DNA of 64,000 bases from NCBI GenBank assembly GCA_938031175.1, contig CALHGZ010000006.1:124001-188000 (forward strand). The letters run 5' to 3'. Below, in pieces: positions 15,472 to 59,770 of this stretch; the stretch's first letter is position 1; the number at the start of each line of letters is the position of its first letter. This stretch comes from Candidatus Kapaibacterium sp. (GTDB taxonomy: Bacteria; Bacteroidota; Ignavibacteria; Kapaibacteriales; UBA2268). The notes under the pieces were generated by a model. That model was not told the origin of the DNA and did not search any database. It saw only the letters and a list, made by a program, of their open reading frames with translations. The position numbers were made by a program, and so were the translations under genes.

Positions 15472-16446
15472 ATGAAAGCTATAAATCTTCTTATTTTAAA
15501 CACAATTTTACTGATATCCTTGTATTCTCATACAAATGCCTGCCAAAATCATTACACTAAAATTGATCCTGAATCCTGGAAACAAATGAAAATCGAACTC
15601 CAAAATTATTACGAAAATGAAATCATACCTTATATGATCAAATGGAAAAACCAATTGGATAATGCTATGACAAAAGCTGATTTAAACAAGCTCAACGAAT
15701 TACGTTTTCAAGCAAAAGAACTTAAAGAAAATATTAAATTAAATTTTTTCAAAAGAAATAAAACTTTTCCGGGAAAAAATAAAGATTCAGAGATAGAAAA
15801 AGCTAATTGCGAATTTAAAAACCATAGTGAGCAATTTGAAAACATTATAAATCAGGTTAAACCATTAGCTGATAAATACGAAAGTACAATTGTACTTCTG
15901 AAAAACGAAGCAAATGAATTAATTCCAAAATGGCGGGACGACTATAAAAATATCTGGAATAAATATTTTGAAAATCAAAACAATAAAAATGAAGTTAATA
16001 GATGTAATCATCATAAATATTCACATAAAATGCATATTGGTCTTTATTCTGGTCTTGATTTCACCACTAAGCATAAAGCAGTAATGTTTATGCTTTGGAA
16101 TGGACAAGAAAAAAATCAAGAATTTATAACCAATTCTTCATCAATATTGTCTTCAGTTGAAATAAATGACGATAATGACAACTTCAAAAATTATCCAAAT
16201 CCATTTAAAGATAATACCACTATATCATTTTACCTCGAAAAAGAAGACAATATAAAAATCACAATTTTAGATTCACGTGGAAGTCAAATAACCGTTCTTT
16301 ATGAAGGTAAACTTCCTGCTGGTGAACATCAATTCAATTATACCCCAAAAGCAGATAACCTCAGTCAGAGTTCTGCCGGTGTTTATTACTTCCAAATCGA
16401 AGGTGAAAACATAAAACGAACTGGCAAAATGTTACTAGATAAATAA
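15472..16446 (+). CDS. Secreted helical protein with type IX secretion tail
   Basis: 324-residue exported protein of unknown function. A signal peptide (1-23, cut after HTNA) is followed by a Lys/Glu/Asn-rich helical region (about 24-190) that looks like a coiled coil, then a His-rich patch (HHKYSHKMH) and a linker. A T9SS type A tail (about 243-324) begins at NYPNPF, includes LPAGEHQF and SSAGVYYFQI, and ends KMLLDK. The start is ATG with AAAGGAATT upstream. It is expected to be carried across the outer membrane and processed by the PorU-type sortase. It is followed by a strong terminator, so it is transcribed alone. No catalytic motif was recognised; a structural or metal-binding role is possible but unproven. 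Confidence 0.8.
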   Translation: MKAINLLILNTILLISLYSHTNACQNHYTKIDPESWKQMKIELQNYYENEIIPYMIKWKNQLDNAMTKADLNKLNELRFQAKELKENIKLNFFKRNKTFPGKNKDSEIEKANCEFKNHSEQFENIINQVKPLADKYESTIVLLKNEANELIPKWRDDYKNIWNKYFENQNNKNEVNRCNHHKYSHKMHIGLYSGLDFTTKHKAVMFMLWNGQEKNQEFITNSSSILSSVEINDDNDNFKNYPNPFKDNTTISFYLEKEDNIKITILDSRGSQITVLYEGKLPAGEHQFNYTPKADNLSQSSAGVYYFQIEGENIKRTGKMLLDK

Positions 16447-40381: not shown

Positions 40382-41353
40382 ATGATTAACAACTTATCAA
40401 TGGATGTATATTTGGAGTCAGCAAAAGTTGATATTGTCATTATTTCCTATAATTCCAGGAAATTAACCGAAAATTGCATCAATTCTCTAATTAATGGTAA
40501 TGAAAGTTTAATTAAAAAAATAATACTTGTTGATAATGCCTCCCAGGATGATACTGTAAGTGTAATTAAAAAAAAATATCCATCAATTGAATTAATATTA
40601 AATTCTGAAAATTTAGGATATGCTAAAGCTGTAAATATTGGCATTAAATACACCAATACAGAAATAGTAATAATTTCAAATTCAGATATTATTTATCCTC
40701 CGGGTTCGGTGCAATCAATGGTACAATACATTAATAAATCATTAGAAATAGGTTGCATAGCCCCCCAGCAAATATATCCAAACGGTGCCTGGCAAAGAAG
40801 TTATGGTTTCTATCCAGGATTAAAACACGCTCTGATGGATTTACTATTTTTAACTTCATTCAATAATTTATTTAAAAAAATGTTCTGGAAAATATTACCA
40901 ATAGACCGGAACCCAAAGTATGTAGAATATTTAGACGGTGCCTGTTTATTTATTAGAAAAGAAGCATTCGCACAACTTAATGGTTTCGATGAAGATTATT
41001 TTTTTTATACTGAAGAAGCTGACTTTTGTTATAGATTGAATCGAAGCCAATGGCAAGTTGTTTTTTATCCAAAAGTTAAAATTATTCATAATAGAGGTGG
41101 CAGTTCACAAAGTAATCATTCTGATTTCATTAAAATGTTAATCGAAAGCAAAATACTTTTCTGTAAAAAGCATTATACTAATTTCCACACAAAGCTATTT
41201 ATTAAGATCGAAAGTTATCATTCGATAATAATGAAGTTTTTATGGAGATTTATTTCTTTATTTTCAAGTGGAAATACGAAGATTAAAGCTCAAAAAAAAA
41301 TCAATTTTTTCAATACTTGCTTAACAGTATGGAGAGAAAATGAAAAAATTTGA
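40382..41353 (+). CDS. Family 2 glycosyltransferase
   Basis: Predicted GT-A transferase of 323 residues, rhamnosyltransferase-like. VDIVIISYNSRKL opens the nucleotide-binding fold, IILVDNASQDDT follows, and the DXD-like element is SNSDIIY (about 96-102). The acceptor-site acid motif GFDEDYFFYTEEADFCYR lies at about 201-218. The sugar donor is unknown. The ATG lies in ATATATG with no obvious ribosome site. The last 14 bases overlap the next glycosyltransferase-like gene, so the two are likely translationally coupled. They probably act on a surface glycan. Confidence 0.85.
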   Translation: MINNLSMDVYLESAKVDIVIISYNSRKLTENCINSLINGNESLIKKIILVDNASQDDTVSVIKKKYPSIELILNSENLGYAKAVNIGIKYTNTEIVIISNSDIIYPPGSVQSMVQYINKSLEIGCIAPQQIYPNGAWQRSYGFYPGLKHALMDLLFLTSFNNLFKKMFWKILPIDRNPKYVEYLDGACLFIRKEAFAQLNGFDEDYFFYTEEADFCYRLNRSQWQVVFYPKVKIIHNRGGSSQSNHSDFIKMLIESKILFCKKHYTNFHTKLFIKIESYHSIIMKFLWRFISLFSSGNTKIKAQKKINFFNTCLTVWRENEKI

Positions 41354-42164
41354 CCTAGCCATAGCTCTTAGAGTTTATCCAGGAATCTCAAAAGTACCTC
41401 CTTTGTATCCTAATAATAAATTTAAATTGATAGAATTATGCTTCGACTCATTTGTTAAATTTTTGGGTAATGTAAAACCTTATATCTGGATTATTTTAGA
41501 TGCATGCCCTGAAAATTATCAAGAAATCTTCGCAAAATATAATCATTTAAATGTGGAATTCATTAAAGTCAGTAAAATCGGAAATGCTAAAACTTTTGAA
41601 CTCCAATTAAACATCTTACTTGAACAAACAAAAAGCGACATTCTTTATTTTGCTGAAGATGATTATTATTATTTACCTAATAAAATGATTTATATGCTCG
41701 ATTTTCTTGAAAATCACAGAAATGCCCATTTCATAAGTCCCTACGATCACCCTGATTACTATAATCTTGACCTACATTTTGATTTTAAATCAGAACAAAA
41801 AATTGAGAATAATGTAACCTGGCACAAAAGAGCTTCGACTACGATGACTTTCTTAACACACAAAAACATTCTTAAAGAAACAGAAAGAATATTTCGTTCC
41901 TATACTCAAAATAATTGGGATTCAAGTATGTGGTTAAGTCTATCTAAATATCGAGTAAACACAATTAAATTTGCATTAAAGTCTTTTTTATCAAACAAAT
42001 ACTATTCAAAAATCATACTAAAAGCCTGGTATTACAATCTTTTCCAAATATTATTCGGGAAACAATATAATTTATGGGTACCAACCCCATCATTTTCAAC
42101 ACATATGGATAGTTCTCACCTGGCACCAAACATTGATTGGAAAAACATTTTCCAACACATTTGA
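41340..42164 (+). CDS. Glycosyltransferase-like protein (GT-A type)
   Basis: 274-residue protein starting at an ATG with GGAGAGAAA upstream and overlapping the previous gene by 14 bases. It shows an N-terminal Rossmann-like beginning (LAIALRVYPGI), a metal-type acidic motif YFAEDDYYY (about 101-109), and HFISPYDHPDYYN. A later NWDSSMW and a hydrophobic aromatic C-terminal region follow. The fold resembles nucleotide-diphospho-sugar transferases, but the family was not identified with certainty. Coupling to the preceding GT2 gene suggests both build one glycan. Confidence 0.6.
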   Translation: MKKFDLAIALRVYPGISKVPPLYPNNKFKLIELCFDSFVKFLGNVKPYIWIILDACPENYQEIFAKYNHLNVEFIKVSKIGNAKTFELQLNILLEQTKSDILYFAEDDYYYLPNKMIYMLDFLENHRNAHFISPYDHPDYYNLDLHFDFKSEQKIENNVTWHKRASTTMTFLTHKNILKETERIFRSYTQNNWDSSMWLSLSKYRVNTIKFALKSFLSNKYYSKIILKAWYYNLFQILFGKQYNLWVPTPSFSTHMDSSHLAPNIDWKNIFQHI

Positions 42165-52125: not shown

Positions 52126-54147
52126 ATGGCTGAAACCCCAGATAATAAAGATGATAAGAAATTCAATTTTTTCAATGATTTTAATAGACCGGGTGCAGGA
52201 GGTAATCCACAAAATCGTTTTATGAGAAATTTTATTCTCTGGATGATCATTGCTGCCGGAATATTTTCTATCTATTTCTTTTCTCAAACCGACAAACGAG
52301 GCACCGCCAAAATCTCTTATACAGAGTATTTGCGACTTTTAGAACAAGATTTAATAAAGTCAGCTGTAATCAAGAAATCACAACTAAATGATTATGAATT
52401 TTACGGTGAATTAAAAGAACAAGTAACAATAATGGACGGCGGAAGACCTAAACAAATCACTTCCTTTATAACTAAACTCGGGGTACTCGATTCAAAGACC
52501 GAAGAAGTATGGCTTTCCAAAGGTATAACTTGGAAATACGAGGAAGGCGATAGTCCATTTTGGGGAACATTGATTTCTCTGTTACCATTAATTTTGCTTG
52601 TACTATTCTTTATTTTTATTATGCGTCGTATGCAATCAGGAGGCACAAAAGGTATCTTTAACTTTGGAAAAGCAAGAGTGAAATTGCATTCGAATAGCCA
52701 AAATCGAATAACTTTCAAAGATGTAGCCGGTGCTGATGAAGCAAAATATGAATTAGAAGAAATCATAGAATTCTTAAAAGAACCAAAGAAGTTTCAGAGA
52801 CTTGGTGGCAAAATTCCCAAAGGAGTACTTCTTTTGGGACCACCTGGAACTGGCAAAACACTTTTGGCTCGTGCTGTTGCAGGAGAAGCCAACGTTCCAT
52901 TTTTCTCAATATCGGGTGCTGATTTTGTTGAGATGTTTGTTGGCGTCGGTGCTAGTAGAGTAAGAGACCTATTTGATCAAGCCAAGAAAAATGCACCATG
53001 CTTAGTATTTATTGATGAAATTGATGCAGTTGGTCGTCATCGTGGAGCAGGTCTTGGTGGTGGTCACGACGAAAGAGAACAGACCCTTAATCAATTACTT
53101 GTCGAAATGGACGGCTTTGAACAAAATAGCGGTGTTATCGTAATTGCTGCAACAAATAGACCAGACGTTCTTGACCCTGCATTACTTAGACCGGGAAGAT
53201 TCGATAGGCAAGTAGTTGTTGATCGACCTGATGTTCGTGGTAGAGAAGGTATTTTCAAGGTTCATACCCGCTCAATACCATTGGGTAGCGATGTAGATTT
53301 AAAGGTATTAGCTAAAGGAACCCCTGGATTATCAGGAGCTGATATAGCCAACATTGTAAATGAAGCTGCTCTATTAGCTGCAAGACGTAATAGCGATGTA
53401 GTTACCATGTATGATTTCGAAAATGCAAAAGATAAAGTATTAATGGGCATCGAAAGAAAAAGTCTAGTCATTTCTGAAAAAGAAAAAGAAATGACTGCTT
53501 ATCACGAAATGGGACATGCTCTTGTAGGTAAATTACTCGATGGGGATCCTGTACATAAAGTAACTATCATTCCACGCGGACGTGCTTTAGGAGTAACATC
53601 TTACTTACCTAATGAAGAATTTCATTCCTGGTCAAAAGATTATATTGAGAAAAAAATAATAATACTTCTGGCGGGTAGAGCAGCTGAAAAAATCATTTTC
53701 GGCAATCTATCAACTGGTGCCGCCAATGACTTGCAAAGAGCAACTCAATTAGCTCGTAAAATGGTTTGTGAATGGGGTATGAGCGAAGTATTAGGTCCGG
53801 TTACATTCAATAACCAACACGAAGAGGTTTTTTTAGGACGTGAAATAGCTCAACCGAGAGACCACAGTGAGCATACAGCCCAGATCATCGACGCTGAAGT
53901 TCGAAAAATACTTATCAATGCAAGTGATAAAGCTGATGAATTACTAAGGAATAATATTGATTTGTTACACAAAACTTCTAAAATCCTACTCGAAAGAGAA
54001 TACCTCGACGGCGAGGAACTGGATTTAATTATCAAAGGTGAAGAATTGCCCCCAATAAATAAAAAAACTATTAATGCTATCAGGGCGATGAAATTTAATG
54101 GTAATAATGAGGAAGTCAGCGAAATCAAAGAAGAAAATAATAATTAA
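52126..54147 (+). CDS. ftsH: ATP-dependent zinc metalloprotease FtsH
   Basis: Membrane-bound AAA protease that removes misfolded and regulatory membrane proteins. Two helices (about 34-52 and 147-166) flank a periplasmic domain. The Walker A is GPPGTGKT at 238-245, Walker B is [11 protein letters not shown], and the SRH reads [20 protein letters not shown]. The zinc site is HEMGH at 460-464, with the usual Ala replaced by Met. Length (673 aa) is normal. The start ATG has GGAGA upstream. The gene is alone; its stop faces the DprE2-like gene 5 bases away. Confidence 0.97.
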
Positions 54148-54152
54148 TCTTT

Positions 54153-54890
54153 CTACAAATTCATTCTCTTGAATACTCGTTCGGGTATCAATTTTATGAT
54201 TGTCATTATACACTTCCAGTAGAATGGCAAGTAAACAACATCTTTACCTTTCATCATTGCATTATAGATGCCTTTGGCAATCGTTTCAGCCGATGTGAAA
54301 AGGAAATTTTTTTTCAGGTGAGCAGTCATTGGAGTATCAACCAAGCCCGGTTTGATAGTAATAATTTTAACATTTGATTTGCCAAACCTATTTCTTAAAC
54401 CTTGCAAAAATATACTTACAGCTCCTTTAGCCGAACCATAAATATAATTACTTTTACGTCCCCTATCACCTGCAACAGAGGAGATAACTGCTAATGTCCC
54501 TTTGTTGATTTTCTCAAAATAATTTGAAATTAATGATGTAAGCAAAATCACACTGGTTGCATTAGTTGAAAATTCTCGAGCTATTTGTTCTGGATCATTG
54601 ATTATTTCTTCATGATTTGCTAGTGTGCCATAAGCAATCAATACATAATCAATTTGACCCAGTTTATTTAAAGCATCTTTTAAAATTTGATCGTGTTTGT
54701 CAAAATGATTTGCATCCATTTCATTATAATAAACCTCCCCAGCACCGAATACTTTTAAATCATCTACAATAATTTTCAAACGCTCGAGCGACAAATCAAC
54801 CAAATAAAAATGGAAATTATCTCGGGCAAATATTCTTGCTGTTTCTTGAGCTATTGCAGATGCTGCTCCTATTATAAGTATTGTTTTCAT
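54153..54890 (-). CDS. dprE2: DprE2-like short-chain dehydrogenase (2-keto reductase)
   Basis: 245-residue SDR-family enzyme. The Rossmann loop reads GAASAIA (residues 8-14), with the same Ile-Ala ending as mycobacterial DprE2. The catalytic Ser lies at about 137-138 (VISSVAGDRGRKSN) and the YxxxK is Y151GSAK155; the stretch RKSNYIYGSAKGA matches DprE2 closely. DprE2 reduces decaprenylphosphoryl-2-keto-ribose to the arabinose form using NADH. It follows the DprE1-like gene by 24 bases on the same strand. A different SDR activity is possible, but the gene order supports the call. Confidence 0.78.
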   Translation of the reverse strand: MKTILIIGAASAIAQETARIFARDNFHFYLVDLSLERLKIIVDDLKVFGAGEVYYNEMDANHFDKHDQILKDALNKLGQIDYVLIAYGTLANHEEIINDPEQIAREFSTNATSVILLTSLISNYFEKINKGTLAVISSVAGDRGRKSNYIYGSAKGAVSIFLQGLRNRFGKSNVKIITIKPGLVDTPMTAHLKKNFLFTSAETIAKGIYNAMMKGKDVVYLPFYWKCIMTIIKLIPERVFKRMNL

Positions 54891-54914
54891 AATTTCTCAG
54901 TTAATTTATAACAC

Positions 54915-56228
54915 TTATTTACTAACTCTTCTCCAAAAACTTGATGAAAACTTCTCATCAATAAATTTAGAGAAATATTCCCATTGGGGATAAAACCTCT
55001 TAAAATCCATTGGGTTCATTCTTGAATCCTTAGCAGGATAATGTCCACCACCTACCTCACGCACAATACTATCTAAGCGATTTAACATTTCTAAAGTTTC
55101 TTTACCATCCATTGGAAAATCAATTGCTAATGTTATACCTTTGCGTGGAAAGGACATCAAACCTGGCGATTTTTTATCTCCAAATGTTTTCAATACAGTC
55201 ATAAAAGATTTTTTGTTTGATTGATGAATGATTTTCATTATGTCCTTTATAACAAAAGCTCCATCTTCTATTGGAATTACAATTTGATACTGGATAAATC
55301 CATTCTTACCATAAGCAAAATTCCAATTGTTTATTCCATCCAAAGGATAAAAAAATTTGTTGTAATGGATAATTTTTTTTTCTTCTCTGAATATTTGTTT
55401 ATTGTAATAAATACTATTTAGTAGGCTTGTTGTGAAATTATTCATCAATTTCAATTCAAAAGGAAATGGAATTTTCAATTCTTTATGCTGTAACTTTTTA
55501 GTCTCTTTATAGGCAGTATGATTACCCCTTATATATATACCACGTGGATTGCAACCAAAGGGAAAACTAGCATCAACCCAAGCAACTGTATATTCAAATT
55601 TTTGCTCGGATTCATAATTAATTGCAAAAAATTCATCTAAATTATCAAACTTGATAAATTCTGCATCAATAAAAATTCCCGGTATATTTTTTAGTTTTAT
55701 TTTAGCTGTTGTAATAATCCCTGTTAGACCAAGTCCCCCAATAGTAGCTTTGAATAAATCACTATTTATTTTTTCATTGCATGTCAGAACTTCACCATTT
55801 GAACGCAATAACTCGAATTCTTGAACATAGCAACCAATAGTACCATTTATATGATGATTTTTCCCATGTACATCATTTGCAATAGCTCCGGCAATAGAGA
55901 TATGTTTTGTCCCTGGAGTAACAGGTAAAAAATAATTATATGGAATTATTAATTTCAAAATCTTATCTAATGTTACACCTGCCTCACATTTTAAAGTACC
56001 ATTGATTTGATCGAATTCAATAAAATGATTGAGTCGTTTTATATCTACCAAATATCCGTCTTTGTTCAGGCAAGAATCACCATAACTTTTGCCAAAAGCA
56101 TAAGGTAAAACAGTAGAATCTAAATTCTGTAAATTGGGCTTTTCATTTCTCCAGCTCATATGTAAAACATTTTTAGGATAATATTTAGGATATCGTCCCC
56201 AAGATAAATAATTATTCAGCTCAATCAT
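54915..56228 (-). CDS. dprE1: DprE1-like FAD-dependent oxidoreductase
   Basis: 437-residue VAO/PCMH-type flavoprotein, the partner that oxidises the 2'-OH of polyprenylphosphoryl-ribose. FAD motifs are AFGKSYGDSCLN (about 45-56), VTPGTKHISIAGAIANDVHG and GKNHHINGTIG. The C-terminal part (TVLKTFG...GITLAIDFPMDG) aligns with the DprE1 segment that carries Cys387, but here the residue is Ala368. The first codon overlaps the HAD-UbiA stop by 4 bases (ATGA), showing coupling. Length is close to mycobacterial DprE1 (461 aa). Confidence 0.8.
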   Translation of the reverse strand: MIELNNYLSWGRYPKYYPKNVLHMSWRNEKPNLQNLDSTVLPYAFGKSYGDSCLNKDGYLVDIKRLNHFIEFDQINGTLKCEAGVTLDKILKLIIPYNYFLPVTPGTKHISIAGAIANDVHGKNHHINGTIGCYVQEFELLRSNGEVLTCNEKINSDLFKATIGGLGLTGIITTAKIKLKNIPGIFIDAEFIKFDNLDEFFAINYESEQKFEYTVAWVDASFPFGCNPRGIYIRGNHTAYKETKKLQHKELKIPFPFELKLMNNFTTSLLNSIYYNKQIFREEKKIIHYNKFFYPLDGINNWNFAYGKNGFIQYQIVIPIEDGAFVIKDIMKIIHQSNKKSFMTVLKTFGDKKSPGLMSFPRKGITLAIDFPMDGKETLEMLNRLDSIVREVGGGHYPAKDSRMNPMDFKRFYPQWEYFSKFIDEKFSSSFWRRVSK

Positions 56229-57646
56229 ATTGAAGCTCCAACAACAATAAGGACAATAAGCAAACCGACGATATAACTTATTCTATCTTTAACAGTAAAA
56301 ACAAGAGGATCCTCCTTTATTTCTCCTCTTTCTGCTAAAAACCAAATTCGAGTAATCCAAAAAAGTAATAATAATGCAACCGCCCAAAGTAGTGATGGAT
56401 GTGTATATAAAGCTATGACATCTTTGCTATTAATATATAAAGCAAATACCATAATTGATATGTATGCGCTAGCAGTTCCTAGACTTCTCATTAAATCAAT
56501 ATCCTTTGTTAAATATCCCCTACCTTTTGATTCAATATGATTATTGAGCTTTAGATTCTTTAATTCTGTGTATCGCTTTACAATGGCTAAGCTCAAGAAA
56601 ATAAACATAGAAAAAGTCAATAACCAGGGCGATAAGTAAACCTCAGCGATGACTCCACCTGATATTATACGAATTGTGTAAAGCGAAGCTAAAATTAGAA
56701 TATCCAGAATGATAATTTTTTTGAAATATAATGAATAGCTGATTGTAATAATTATGTATAAAATTAATAAAAATAAAAATTTTAATGGTAAAAATAAATA
56801 GGAAATAATTATGCTAACTAAAATAAGTATCGGAGCTATGGTTAGTACAGATAAAACAGGAAAATCTCCTGCTGCCAATGGTCTATTTTTTTTAACAGGA
56901 TGCAATCGGTCATTGTTTATATCAAACAAGTCATTAATTGCATAAATGGCTGATGCAGCAAAACTAAATGCAAAGAAGCCTATTAATAGCAATAAGAATT
57001 TATTATAATCCAAAATTTGATGTGCCATCAAAATTGGTAGAAAAAGTAGTATATTTTTTGTCCATTGGTGGATTCTAAATTGTTTCAGAGCTAACTTAAT
57101 TATATTGCTTTTGTCTTTTATTAAAATCACGTCTGAGTTAATTTTTTTTACCTTTTCATAGAGTGAGCGATTATTGGAAACTATCACAGCGATCGAAGCT
57201 GACTGCCATACGGGTAGATCATTAATACTATCACCAATATAGATATAATTTTTTTTGCCAAATCTAGATTCTAAATAATTTCTCTTATTCTCTTTTTTCA
57301 GATTAATTGATTCATCACTACCAATACAATCATCAAAAAGCTTCAGGAAATTACAAATTTTATTGGCTATCAGTTGGTGTGAGGCAGTAATTAAAATGAT
57401 CTGGTGACCCTTGGATTTGTAATCATTAATTAAATTGATCACTTGTTGATTGTATGGTAGTAAGTTTGCATTTAATGACGATTTTATCGAGACTTTTTGT
57501 TTAAAATAAAGCAAACCTTTAAATAACCAGATTGGTATGAGAAATATATACAGAAGGTTTTCGCGAAGCAGACTAGCTAAAGCTTCAATTAAAGTATCAG
57601 TCTTAACAAGAGTTCCGTCGAGATCAACACAAACAGGTTTATTCAA
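56225..57646 (-). CDS. HAD phosphatase - UbiA prenyltransferase fusion (polyprenyl-phosphate phosphoribosyltransferase-like)
   Basis: 473-residue protein with two domains. Residues about 1-190 are a HAD phosphatase with the catalytic Asp motif DLDGTL (8-13) and a late GDSINDLPVW. Residues about 195-473 are a UbiA membrane domain with about eight helices and the first acidic motif N238DLFD followed by HPVKKNRPLAAG. The UbiA part resembles mycobacterial decaprenyl-phosphate phosphoribosyltransferase (Rv3806c), which joins PRPP to the lipid. The HAD part could remove the 5-phosphate next. It is 45 bases downstream of prkA and overlaps the DprE1-like start by 4 bases. The polyprenol length and product are not shown by sequence. 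Confidence 0.78.
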   Translation of the reverse strand: MNKPVCVDLDGTLVKTDTLIEALASLLRENLLYIFLIPIWLFKGLLYFKQKVSIKSSLNANLLPYNQQVINLINDYKSKGHQIILITASHQLIANKICNFLKLFDDCIGSDESINLKKENKRNYLESRFGKKNYIYIGDSINDLPVWQSASIAVIVSNNRSLYEKVKKINSDVILIKDKSNIIKLALKQFRIHQWTKNILLFLPILMAHQILDYNKFLLLLIGFFAFSFAASAIYAINDLFDINNDRLHPVKKNRPLAAGDFPVLSVLTIAPILILVSIIISYLFLPLKFLFLLILYIIITISYSLYFKKIIILDILILASLYTIRIISGGVIAEVYLSPWLLTFSMFIFLSLAIVKRYTELKNLKLNNHIESKGRGYLTKDIDLMRSLGTASAYISIMVFALYINSKDVIALYTHPSLLWAVALLLLFWITRIWFLAERGEIKEDPLVFTVKDRISYIVGLLIVLIVVGASI

Positions 57647-57691: not shown

Positions 57692-59770
57692 TTAGGTAAC
57701 ATCTTCCTGAGTGCAAAAATATTCAATAGTTTTTTCCGCACAAGTATTGCAATAGCCCAATTTAGTAACCATCGTATTAATCATTCTATTGTATAGCTTT
57801 TGATTTTCCTCATTAGTCCTGTTGGATAGAGCTCCAACAAGACTACCAGCTCCTGCAATATCGGATTTTAATCTAACATCAGTAACAGCTTTAACAAGTT
57901 CATTATTGTCCATAAAATTATAATTCGGATCTTTAATCATTTTCTGGCCGTAAATCTTAGCAATTGTCGTACGAAAACTTTGCTTTTGTTCCTTGTTTTT
58001 CAATCCGAGTCTTTCCTCAACGCTGTTGATGAAAGTTTCGTCAATTTTAAGCGGTACTAATTTACCAGTTTGTGGGTCTCGATAAGTCCAAATCTTATCT
58101 GGTCCTAAATTTTTAGCATCAATTCCAATAACCATGTTAACATAATTAAGTACATCTTTTTCAATTGCACCTGGTTCATCCATATATGCATTGAAAATAG
58201 TTGTCATTACATTTTTTCTATGCAAGCTTCTAGCAATTTTTAGGTCATTTAGATACTTAATTCTATCGTTCGGGTCTTGGACATAATCGAGTATAACACA
58301 TTCCAAAGCAGGGAAAATATCACCAGCGTACATACATTTTCCTTCCTGAGTTTCAGAGCGTTCGAGCAAAATTTGTAAAGCTCTTCCCAAATTTCTATGT
58401 CCCAAACCTTTTTGTCCAAATCTCTTGGTAATATCAGGATCATTATTCAATTCATTAATAACTTCGCTCAAAGTTTTTATACTTTTTTCTCCGGCAACTT
58501 CTCCGGCAGCAAGTTTCATCATTTCAACAGGGGTTAATTTATCACTTGGTGGCATTCTTGTAAGTACTACTGCCACGGATAAAGCATAATTTAAATTTGG
58601 GTCTATATGCATCTTTTCACCGGCAAAATTTGTTTTTTCCTTGCTACCAATAGCATAAGAAGTAAGTTCTTGTTGCAATATATAATTAGTATTATGAGCC
58701 ATATATGTTAAACGGCAACGATCAACAATTGGTGCTTGTTCTTTTTCCTCTAAAAAGCGTGCAAATTCGGAATTATTACTGGTTGCTAATATTAATGTAT
58801 CGAGTGGCCATTTGAATCCTTCAATATCAATTGTTCTATTCTGTATAACACCAAGATATACTTGTATTAGATCTTTTTTGTTTTTAAATATTTCATCTGC
58901 AAAATGGATACCGCCACCTGCTACTCTTGCAAGTGCACCTCGGCGCAAATCAAATCTGTATGGATTATCTGCATCACTAATATTCAAGATTCTGGTTATG
59001 GATTCTTCGCCAAGCAAATCGACTGCAGATGAGGTAATTTTATCTTTAGCGGCGTATTTACCTGTTAGTGTACCACGTGATTCACTTATAGGTACAGGAA
59101 ATATTTCTATAAATTCCAAAATTTTGTTTATATCACCATCGCAATACTCACGTATCTGATTTAATATGTAATATGTACAAGCACCAAGAGGTCTATAATT
59201 TTTGTAAAAATGTTGAATTTTTTTGGAACTTGCCCCCAAAGCTTCTAATAATTTGATATTTTCCTCTTTTTCATTACTCAAATTCATCGCTAAAACCATA
59301 GGATCTTCATAGGTTTGTGACTCTATTCTGGTGATTTTACCATATCCACCTATTTTATCCATATTAATGAATCTGAACGAATACCTTCGATTCTCTGGTA
59401 AGGATATAAAATCGCGATATAGTCCCGATAGAAAATCTACAAAATAAGTTTTGCCATTACCAGGTTCTCCAATTAAAACAAAAGCCATTTCAGCTGATGA
59501 TCCACCTTCAGCTGCATCCTTTACAAATGAAACAAAACTATTGATTTCATCAAACATACCAACTATATGCTTTTTCCCAGTCCTGAATACTTTAAAATCG
59601 TAAGTTTGCCTACCATTAACAGTTACTTTTTCAATTTTGTTCGGTCCTTCCAATATCATTCTAGAAACAGATTGATAAACATTTTCAAATCTTCGCTTAC
59701 CACTAAGAACTTGGAGAATATGATGTGTCAAACTTAGCTCTTTGTTAATTGTAATTTCATTTTTTCTCAT
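57692..59770 (-). CDS. prkA: PrkA-family AAA protein kinase/protease
   Basis: 692-residue cytoplasmic protein of the PrkA/YeaG family. The AAA part has the P-loop GEPGNGKT (101-108) and a region with the family's HFADEIFKNKKDL. PrkA was described as a serine protein kinase in enterobacteria and as a Lon-like protease in Bacillus; which applies here is unknown. The last 20 residues form a cysteine cluster (C674xxC677 and C686), which suggests a metal site. The usual partners YeaH and SpoVR are not in the window. The gene precedes the arabinose-donor cassette on the same strand by 45 bases. Confidence 0.92.
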   Translation of the reverse strand: MRKNEITINKELSLTHHILQVLSGKRRFENVYQSVSRMILEGPNKIEKVTVNGRQTYDFKVFRTGKKHIVGMFDEINSFVSFVKDAAEGGSSAEMAFVLIGEPGNGKTYFVDFLSGLYRDFISLPENRRYSFRFINMDKIGGYGKITRIESQTYEDPMVLAMNLSNEKEENIKLLEALGASSKKIQHFYKNYRPLGACTYYILNQIREYCDGDINKILEFIEIFPVPISESRGTLTGKYAAKDKITSSAVDLLGEESITRILNISDADNPYRFDLRRGALARVAGGGIHFADEIFKNKKDLIQVYLGVIQNRTIDIEGFKWPLDTLILATSNNSEFARFLEEKEQAPIVDRCRLTYMAHNTNYILQQELTSYAIGSKEKTNFAGEKMHIDPNLNYALSVAVVLTRMPPSDKLTPVEMMKLAAGEVAGEKSIKTLSEVINELNNDPDITKRFGQKGLGHRNLGRALQILLERSETQEGKCMYAGDIFPALECVILDYVQDPNDRIKYLNDLKIARSLHRKNVMTTIFNAYMDEPGAIEKDVLNYVNMVIGIDAKNLGPDKIWTYRDPQTGKLVPLKIDETFINSVEERLGLKNKEQKQSFRTTIAKIYGQKMIKDPNYNFMDNNELVKAVTDVRLKSDIAGAGSLVGALSNRTNEENQKLYNRMINTMVTKLGYCNTCAEKTIEYFCTQEDVT

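Follow-up and report, generated by a model that had tools for sequence, protein, structure and literature searches.

The closest described counterparts of the locus analysed here are the three-component pentofuranose systems, in which the HAD-UbiA fusion of Citrobacter youngae (ORF15, PRP-PPPRS) has been characterised biochemically (PMC11127046). An N-terminal HAD phosphatase is there fused to a UbiA phosphoribosyltransferase; this architecture makes farnesyl-P-Ribf from PRPP, and a HAD mutant leaves the 5-phosphate on. The HAD loop-I Asp and the UbiA N-D-x-x-D-x-x-x-D motif are required residues of ORF15-type synthases. DprE1/E2 partners are reported in the arabinofuranose (Araf) systems, a MATE-family or GtrA/SMR-type flippase and a GT136/GT-C transferase are encoded with the donor genes, and ArnT is the nearest sequence relative of the founding GT136 pentofuranosyltransferase (PMC11127046). 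The mycobacterial decaprenyl-phospho-arabinose (DPA) pathway uses Rv3806c, a separate phosphatase (Rv3807c), DprE1 and DprE2. For rhizobial Nod-factor arabinosylation (noeCNHOP), noeC, noeH and noeO are the donor genes, corresponding to the UbiA, DprE1 and DprE2 steps, while noeN encodes a phosphatase and noeP the arabinosyltransferase (PMC5080398). The pilin D-Araf cluster PSPA7_6245-6251 of P. paraeruginosa has its transferase, TfpW, with the pilin gene (PMC12369383) and a separate phosphatase (PMC11127046).

We analysed a 64-kb stretch of a Candidatus Kapaibacterium sp. genome (the window, 64,000 nucleotides; Table 1). Three minus-strand open reading frames fill positions 54153-57646 exactly. 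Those for the HAD-UbiA fusion and the DprE1-like protein share 4 bases, and between the latter and the DprE2-like gene there is a gap of 24 bases. An FtsH gene on the left is convergent with the cassette, and the fusion has a PrkA-type kinase gene 45 bases upstream. The original prediction of three overlapping or closely spaced genes of these kinds was borne out, as reading frames and Pfam, NCBIfam and PDB matches agree far beyond chance; its placing of the cassette in a T9SS-bearing genome is confirmed by a Por_Secre_tail protein in the window. The glycosyltransferases that it noted elsewhere in the window exist as a GT2 pair, but this lies 12 kb away, outside the cassette. In one relative (G043, locus L051), homologues of the GT2 pair are encoded on the opposite strand, a few genes away from the module.

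Table 1. Features of the cassette, its surroundings and genes discussed with it. Plain positions refer to the window; C5 and C8 are contigs of the same genome (G000), and L numbers are loci of other bacteria.
Feature	Location	Strand	Remarks
HAD-UbiA fusion	56225-57646	-	473 aa, TTG start
N-terminal HAD phosphatase domain	57113..57646	-	approximately residues 1-178; predicted phosphoribose 5'-phosphatase
C-terminal UbiA domain	56225..57103	-	approximately residues 182-473; predicted polyprenyl-phosphate 5-phosphoribosyltransferase
DprE1-like FAD oxidase	54915-56228	-	437 aa; predicted polyprenyl-phosphoribose 2'-oxidase (FAD_binding_4, DprE1 model, 4aut, motifs)
DprE2-like SDR	54153-54890	-	245 aa; predicted 2-keto reductase (adh_short, PRK07102/DprE2 models, PDB match, motifs)
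FtsH gene	52126-54147
PrkA-type kinase gene	57692-59770
Por_Secre_tail protein	15472-16446
GT2 pair	40382-42164
RlpA to glf block	C5:270566-277719		includes Polysacc_synt flippase
DUF444-SpoVR-PrkA2	C5:265182-270488
TMTC-like GT-C	C5:277943-279838		TPR-bearing
ArnT-like GT-C	C8:14423-16057
PAP2 phosphatase and ArnT-like GT-C genes	C8:13759-16060		overlapping
521-aa GT-C	C8:255132-256694
PFWDxW GT-C-like family	L093:13378-15192, L096:13569-15299, L100:13527-15260, L121:5493-7118, L146:13530-15158, L148:9148-10986, L150:3462-4805

The cassette shares with the Citrobacter system the fusion of an N-terminal HAD phosphatase to a UbiA phosphoribosyltransferase, and with the Araf systems the accompanying DprE1/E2 homologues (PMC11127046). 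Its three enzyme families and their closest solved structures are those of the mycobacterial DPA pathway, but the phosphatase is a fused HAD domain where mycobacteria and P. paraeruginosa have a separate protein, and the lipid is probably undecaprenyl. It resembles the P. paraeruginosa cluster in specifying a putative D-Araf donor pathway in a Gram-negative organism (PMC12369383). The likeness to a noeC/H/O/P set holds for the donor genes noeC/H/O, whereas noeP is an arabinosyltransferase gene and the sets are not strictly equivalent (PMC5080398); counterparts of noeN and noeP are not beside the Kapaibacterium module, in which the phosphatase is fused. In further contrast to the three-component systems, there is no GT-C gene in the module cluster, and a Polysacc_synt flippase is encoded with glf on another contig.

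Pfam matches divide the fusion into HAD (5.5e-9) and UbiA (7.9e-23) domains. It scored 573.3 bits over residues 2-472 with the PRK08238 HAD-UbiA model (NF006088; cut-off 351), which makes it a member of that family, and fell below the curated cut-off of the PRK12324 equivalog. The HAD motifs DLDGT (8), TAS (87) and GDSIND (138) and the UbiA motif NDLFDINND (238-246) are present, with N238, D239, D242 and D246 invariant in 17 sequences; the protein thus carries the ORF15-type signature of a HAD loop-I Asp and a UbiA N-D-x-x-D-x-x-x-D. DPPR synthase 8j8j was its best PDB sequence match (4.7e-30) and the top fold match of its AF2 model (pLDDT 91.6; TM 0.82 by target length); UbiA structures of the lipid and quinone types ranked well below it. 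The N-terminal part of the model matched HAD phosphoserine phosphatases.

The DprE1-like protein contains an FAD_binding_4 domain (PF01565, 6.4e-20) and the conserved HGKNHH (121-126), K347 and K400, His/Lys motifs that are invariant in the aligned family; it has in these the domain and motifs of a VAO flavoprotein. The DprE1 model (NF053785) gave 326.5 bits (E=3.3e-97, curated cut-off 500), about 270 bits above every other FAD-oxidase model, and mycobacterial DprE1 4aut was the best PDB sequence match (4.5e-65). Where mycobacterial DprE1 has the Cys of VCVDFP, the residue exploited by covalent inhibitors, the Kapaibacterium protein has Ala368, and none of 14 aligned relatives has Cys at this position. 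The DprE2-like protein matched adh_short (2e-33) and, above the cut-off of 267, the SDR model PRK07102 (283.2 bits); the DprE2 model (NF053786) came second with 164.7 bits, short of its cut-off of 250. Its best PDB sequence match was DprE2 (21gq_C, 5.5e-27), 44 bits above the next, and it has Ser137/138 and Y151-GSA-K155. Among named models, DprE1 thus led by a wide margin for the oxidase and DprE2 came second for the SDR, both scores lying under the curated cut-offs. Because the equivalog cut-offs were not reached, the proteins are assigned no further than to the broader groups PRK08238, DprE1-like and PRK07102. All three contain the motifs expected from the decaprenyl-phospho-arabinose route, as had been claimed, and their closest solved relatives are mycobacterial enzymes, including a phosphoribosyltransferase for the UbiA part, rather than unrelated SDRs or FAD oxidases. 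By sequence and fold, the cassette proteins are predicted to work like DPPR synthase/phosphatase, DprE1 and DprE2 enzymes.

We consider it probable (about 0.82), from sequence, models and analogy, that the three-gene module makes polyprenyl-phospho-D-arabinofuranose from PRPP. The UbiA part would transfer Ribf-5-P from PRPP to polyprenyl phosphate, and the HAD part would remove the 5-phosphate to give polyprenyl-P-Ribf. Oxidation at the 2' position by the DprE1-like protein, followed by 2-keto reduction by the DprE2-like protein, would then yield polyprenyl-phospho-beta-D-arabinofuranose in the cytoplasm. This outcome is to be expected from the biochemistry of HAD-UbiA enzymes and the presence of DprE1/E2 in Araf systems (PMC11127046).

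The original prediction implied that such a cassette would be surprising in a Gram-negative lineage. Gene sets of this kind had, however, already been described (PMC11127046, PMC12369383, PMC5080398), and they are widespread, in hundreds of Gram-negative genomes; by sequence, the cassette is a further case of a known gene set. An alignment search with the fusion found at least 565 relatives, in Proteobacteria, Chlorobi, Acidobacteria, Verrucomicrobia and others, a Candidatus Kapaibacterium MAG (Bacteroidota) being among the matches. A full-length DprE1-like gene (E1) was present in 45 of 59 sampled relatives of the Kapaibacterium genome. Among 36 relative loci, UbiA adjoined E1 in 31 and the SDR gene did so in 23; a separate tally of E1 beside UbiA genes is circular for the relatives, whose loci were fetched by E1, and was not counted as evidence. 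Outside this group, 46 loci with good flanks had E1 alongside in 24 cases and both E1 and the DprE2-like gene (E2) in 20. DprE1-like genes were also found on 64 plasmids, mostly rhizobial. In some relatives (L055, L056 and L058 of family f2; L060 and L061 of family f8) the UbiA protein has no HAD domain though E1/E2 follow, so the 5'-phosphatase must there be separate or lost.

No flippase adjoins the module in the 64-kb window. Relatives have the gene order RlpA-TPR-DUF3467-GH57-flippase-glf-HU-E1-E2, where HU is HAD-UbiA, most completely in L033, L040, L042 and L045; within the fetched neighbourhoods, glf accompanied the module in eight relatives and the flippase in six. In the Kapaibacterium genome the operon is split. 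RlpA, TPR, DUF3467, GH57, Polysacc_synt flippase and glf (UDP-galactofuranose) are together in the same order on another contig, with DUF444, SpoVR and a second PrkA gene after them, and HU-E1-E2 is preceded by PrkA instead. This linkage of the module to glf and a flippase in relatives, and its splitting here, is new. PrkA-DUF444-SpoVR is a common operon, and the PrkA gene of the window is apart from DUF444-SpoVR-PrkA2. Apparently the same rearrangement separated glf from HU and this PrkA gene from DUF444-SpoVR-PrkA2; we infer that one swap of the glf/HU and PrkA/DUF444 junctions would explain both places. Co-occurrence of glf with the module across genomes was not beyond chance (p=0.22). A search of the Kapaibacterium genome found no GtrA family protein, with positive search controls. 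For flipping the donor, the likeliest protein would then be the Polysacc_synt flippase whose gene accompanies glf, an assignment that follows the relatives' gene order and is tentative.

Nor does the window have a GT-C transferase gene next to the module. The genome was queried with PMT_2, GtrA and specific GT-C proteins, and the PMT_2 search found six GT-C candidates; these queries identified none of the Emb/Aft arabinosyltransferases that belong to the mycobacterial arabinan machinery. The best was an ArnT-like protein (PDB 5ezm, 1.5e-19), with a fold match to ArnT from a model of pLDDT only 73.8. At E<1e-100, 25 of the 45 relatives with the module have it and none of the 14 without (Fisher p=1.2e-4), leaving 20 module-bearing relatives with no orthologue at this threshold. 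The association persisted within the family (Fisher 0.019), outside it (0.022) and in a permutation within size and family strata (p=0.017); several candidates were tested, of which this is one, and relatedness is only roughly controlled. As controls, the same permutation gave p=0.40 for glf and p=0.10 for a TMTC-like GT-C which, at E<1e-30, occurred only in module-bearing genomes and was not significant once size was stratified for; genome size may therefore account for part of the ArnT-like signal. The genome-wide check thus yielded a candidate that co-occurs with the module, but none that adjoins it, and the association is suggestive. A PAP2 phosphatase gene overlaps the start of the ArnT-like gene; none of the relatives inspected had a PAP2-like gene beside the orthologue.

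A GT-C enzyme would then act on the donor outside the membrane; the ArnT-like protein is the best candidate found, at rather less than even odds. The chances are about even that the same donor module serves another GT-C, such as the 521-aa protein or the TMTC-like protein. The TMTC-like gene adjoins the glf/flippase cluster, but with genome size considered its family did not associate significantly with the module. In the 521-aa protein, a DDSFFY...NGYHPLW motif recalls the GT-Cs encoded next to the module in KSB1 and Novosphingobium, and a weak relative of the protein lies near the module in G004; against this, the protein was matched in only 12 of 60 genomes. Fast evolution of GT-Cs keeps such candidates alive. 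A 526-aa GT-C inside the G004 operon (L040) was rejected as the transferase, with no relative in the Kapaibacterium genome; neither it nor the 521-aa protein matched a solved structure by sequence. In Chlorobi and Gammaproteobacteria the module is flanked by genes of a GT-C family (query A3) that had no match in 60 genomes, a set that holds no positive control. In these two groups a GT-C-like membrane family (PFWDxW ... HNEHR) directly follows HU-E1-E2, and most of the loci also have a GtrA gene farther along. Pfam gave no match for the two members searched, and the family is a candidate for an uncatalogued arabinofuranosyltransferase family.

The product of the module could instead be polyprenyl-phospho-ribofuranose or another epimer, with diverged E1 and E2. 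The DprE1, DprE2 and PRK12324 scores stay under their cut-offs, which leaves some doubt about epimerisation to arabino; the products of the Citrobacter systems are Ribf or Xylf (PMC11127046), and E1 is missing from about half of the HAD-UbiA loci inspected in other Gram-negatives. We regard this as improbable, since the DprE1 model far outscores other FAD-oxidase models, the His/Lys motifs are invariant, the SDR matches DprE2 best in the PDB, and E1 and E2 are kept with the fusion in most relatives. That the UbiA domain is an ordinary quinone or lipid prenyltransferase, the flavoprotein and SDR acting elsewhere (for example on a sugar lactone or polyol), would fit the breadth of the Pfam families and is very improbable in view of the 573-bit PRK08238 score, the lead of 8j8j in sequence and fold, the phosphatase fused to UbiA and a three-gene order conserved across phyla. 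The polyprenyl-P-Araf donor originally proposed is well supported, by way of homology, by the sequences and their motifs, the predicted fold and the order of the genes, with the three cut-offs missed.

D-Araf from this donor would be put on a surface glycan, which may also contain galactofuranose. The surface D-Araf glycan of the original prediction is plausible, though its transferase and acceptor are ones that we infer. The former linkage with glf and the Polysacc_synt flippase suggests a glycan bearing Galf and Araf. A fuller version, in which the lineage makes an arabinogalactan-like surface glycan with D-Araf and D-Galf from an ancestral glf/lipid-donor-flippase/polyprenyl-P-Araf operon, with the ArnT-like GT-C as arabinofuranosyltransferase, is unlikely.

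With these results, the route to lipid-linked pentofuranose from PRPP extends to an uncultivated lineage on the Bacteroidota side, where it is nearly core, and the ArnT-like protein is a testable GT-C candidate. DprE1 is a tuberculosis drug target, and its relatives are common among environmental Gram-negatives. D-arabinofuranose is a building block of the tuberculosis cell wall, and the predicted donor route is found here in an unrelated Gram-negative, pointing to a possible glycan of Araf and Galf outside Actinobacteria.
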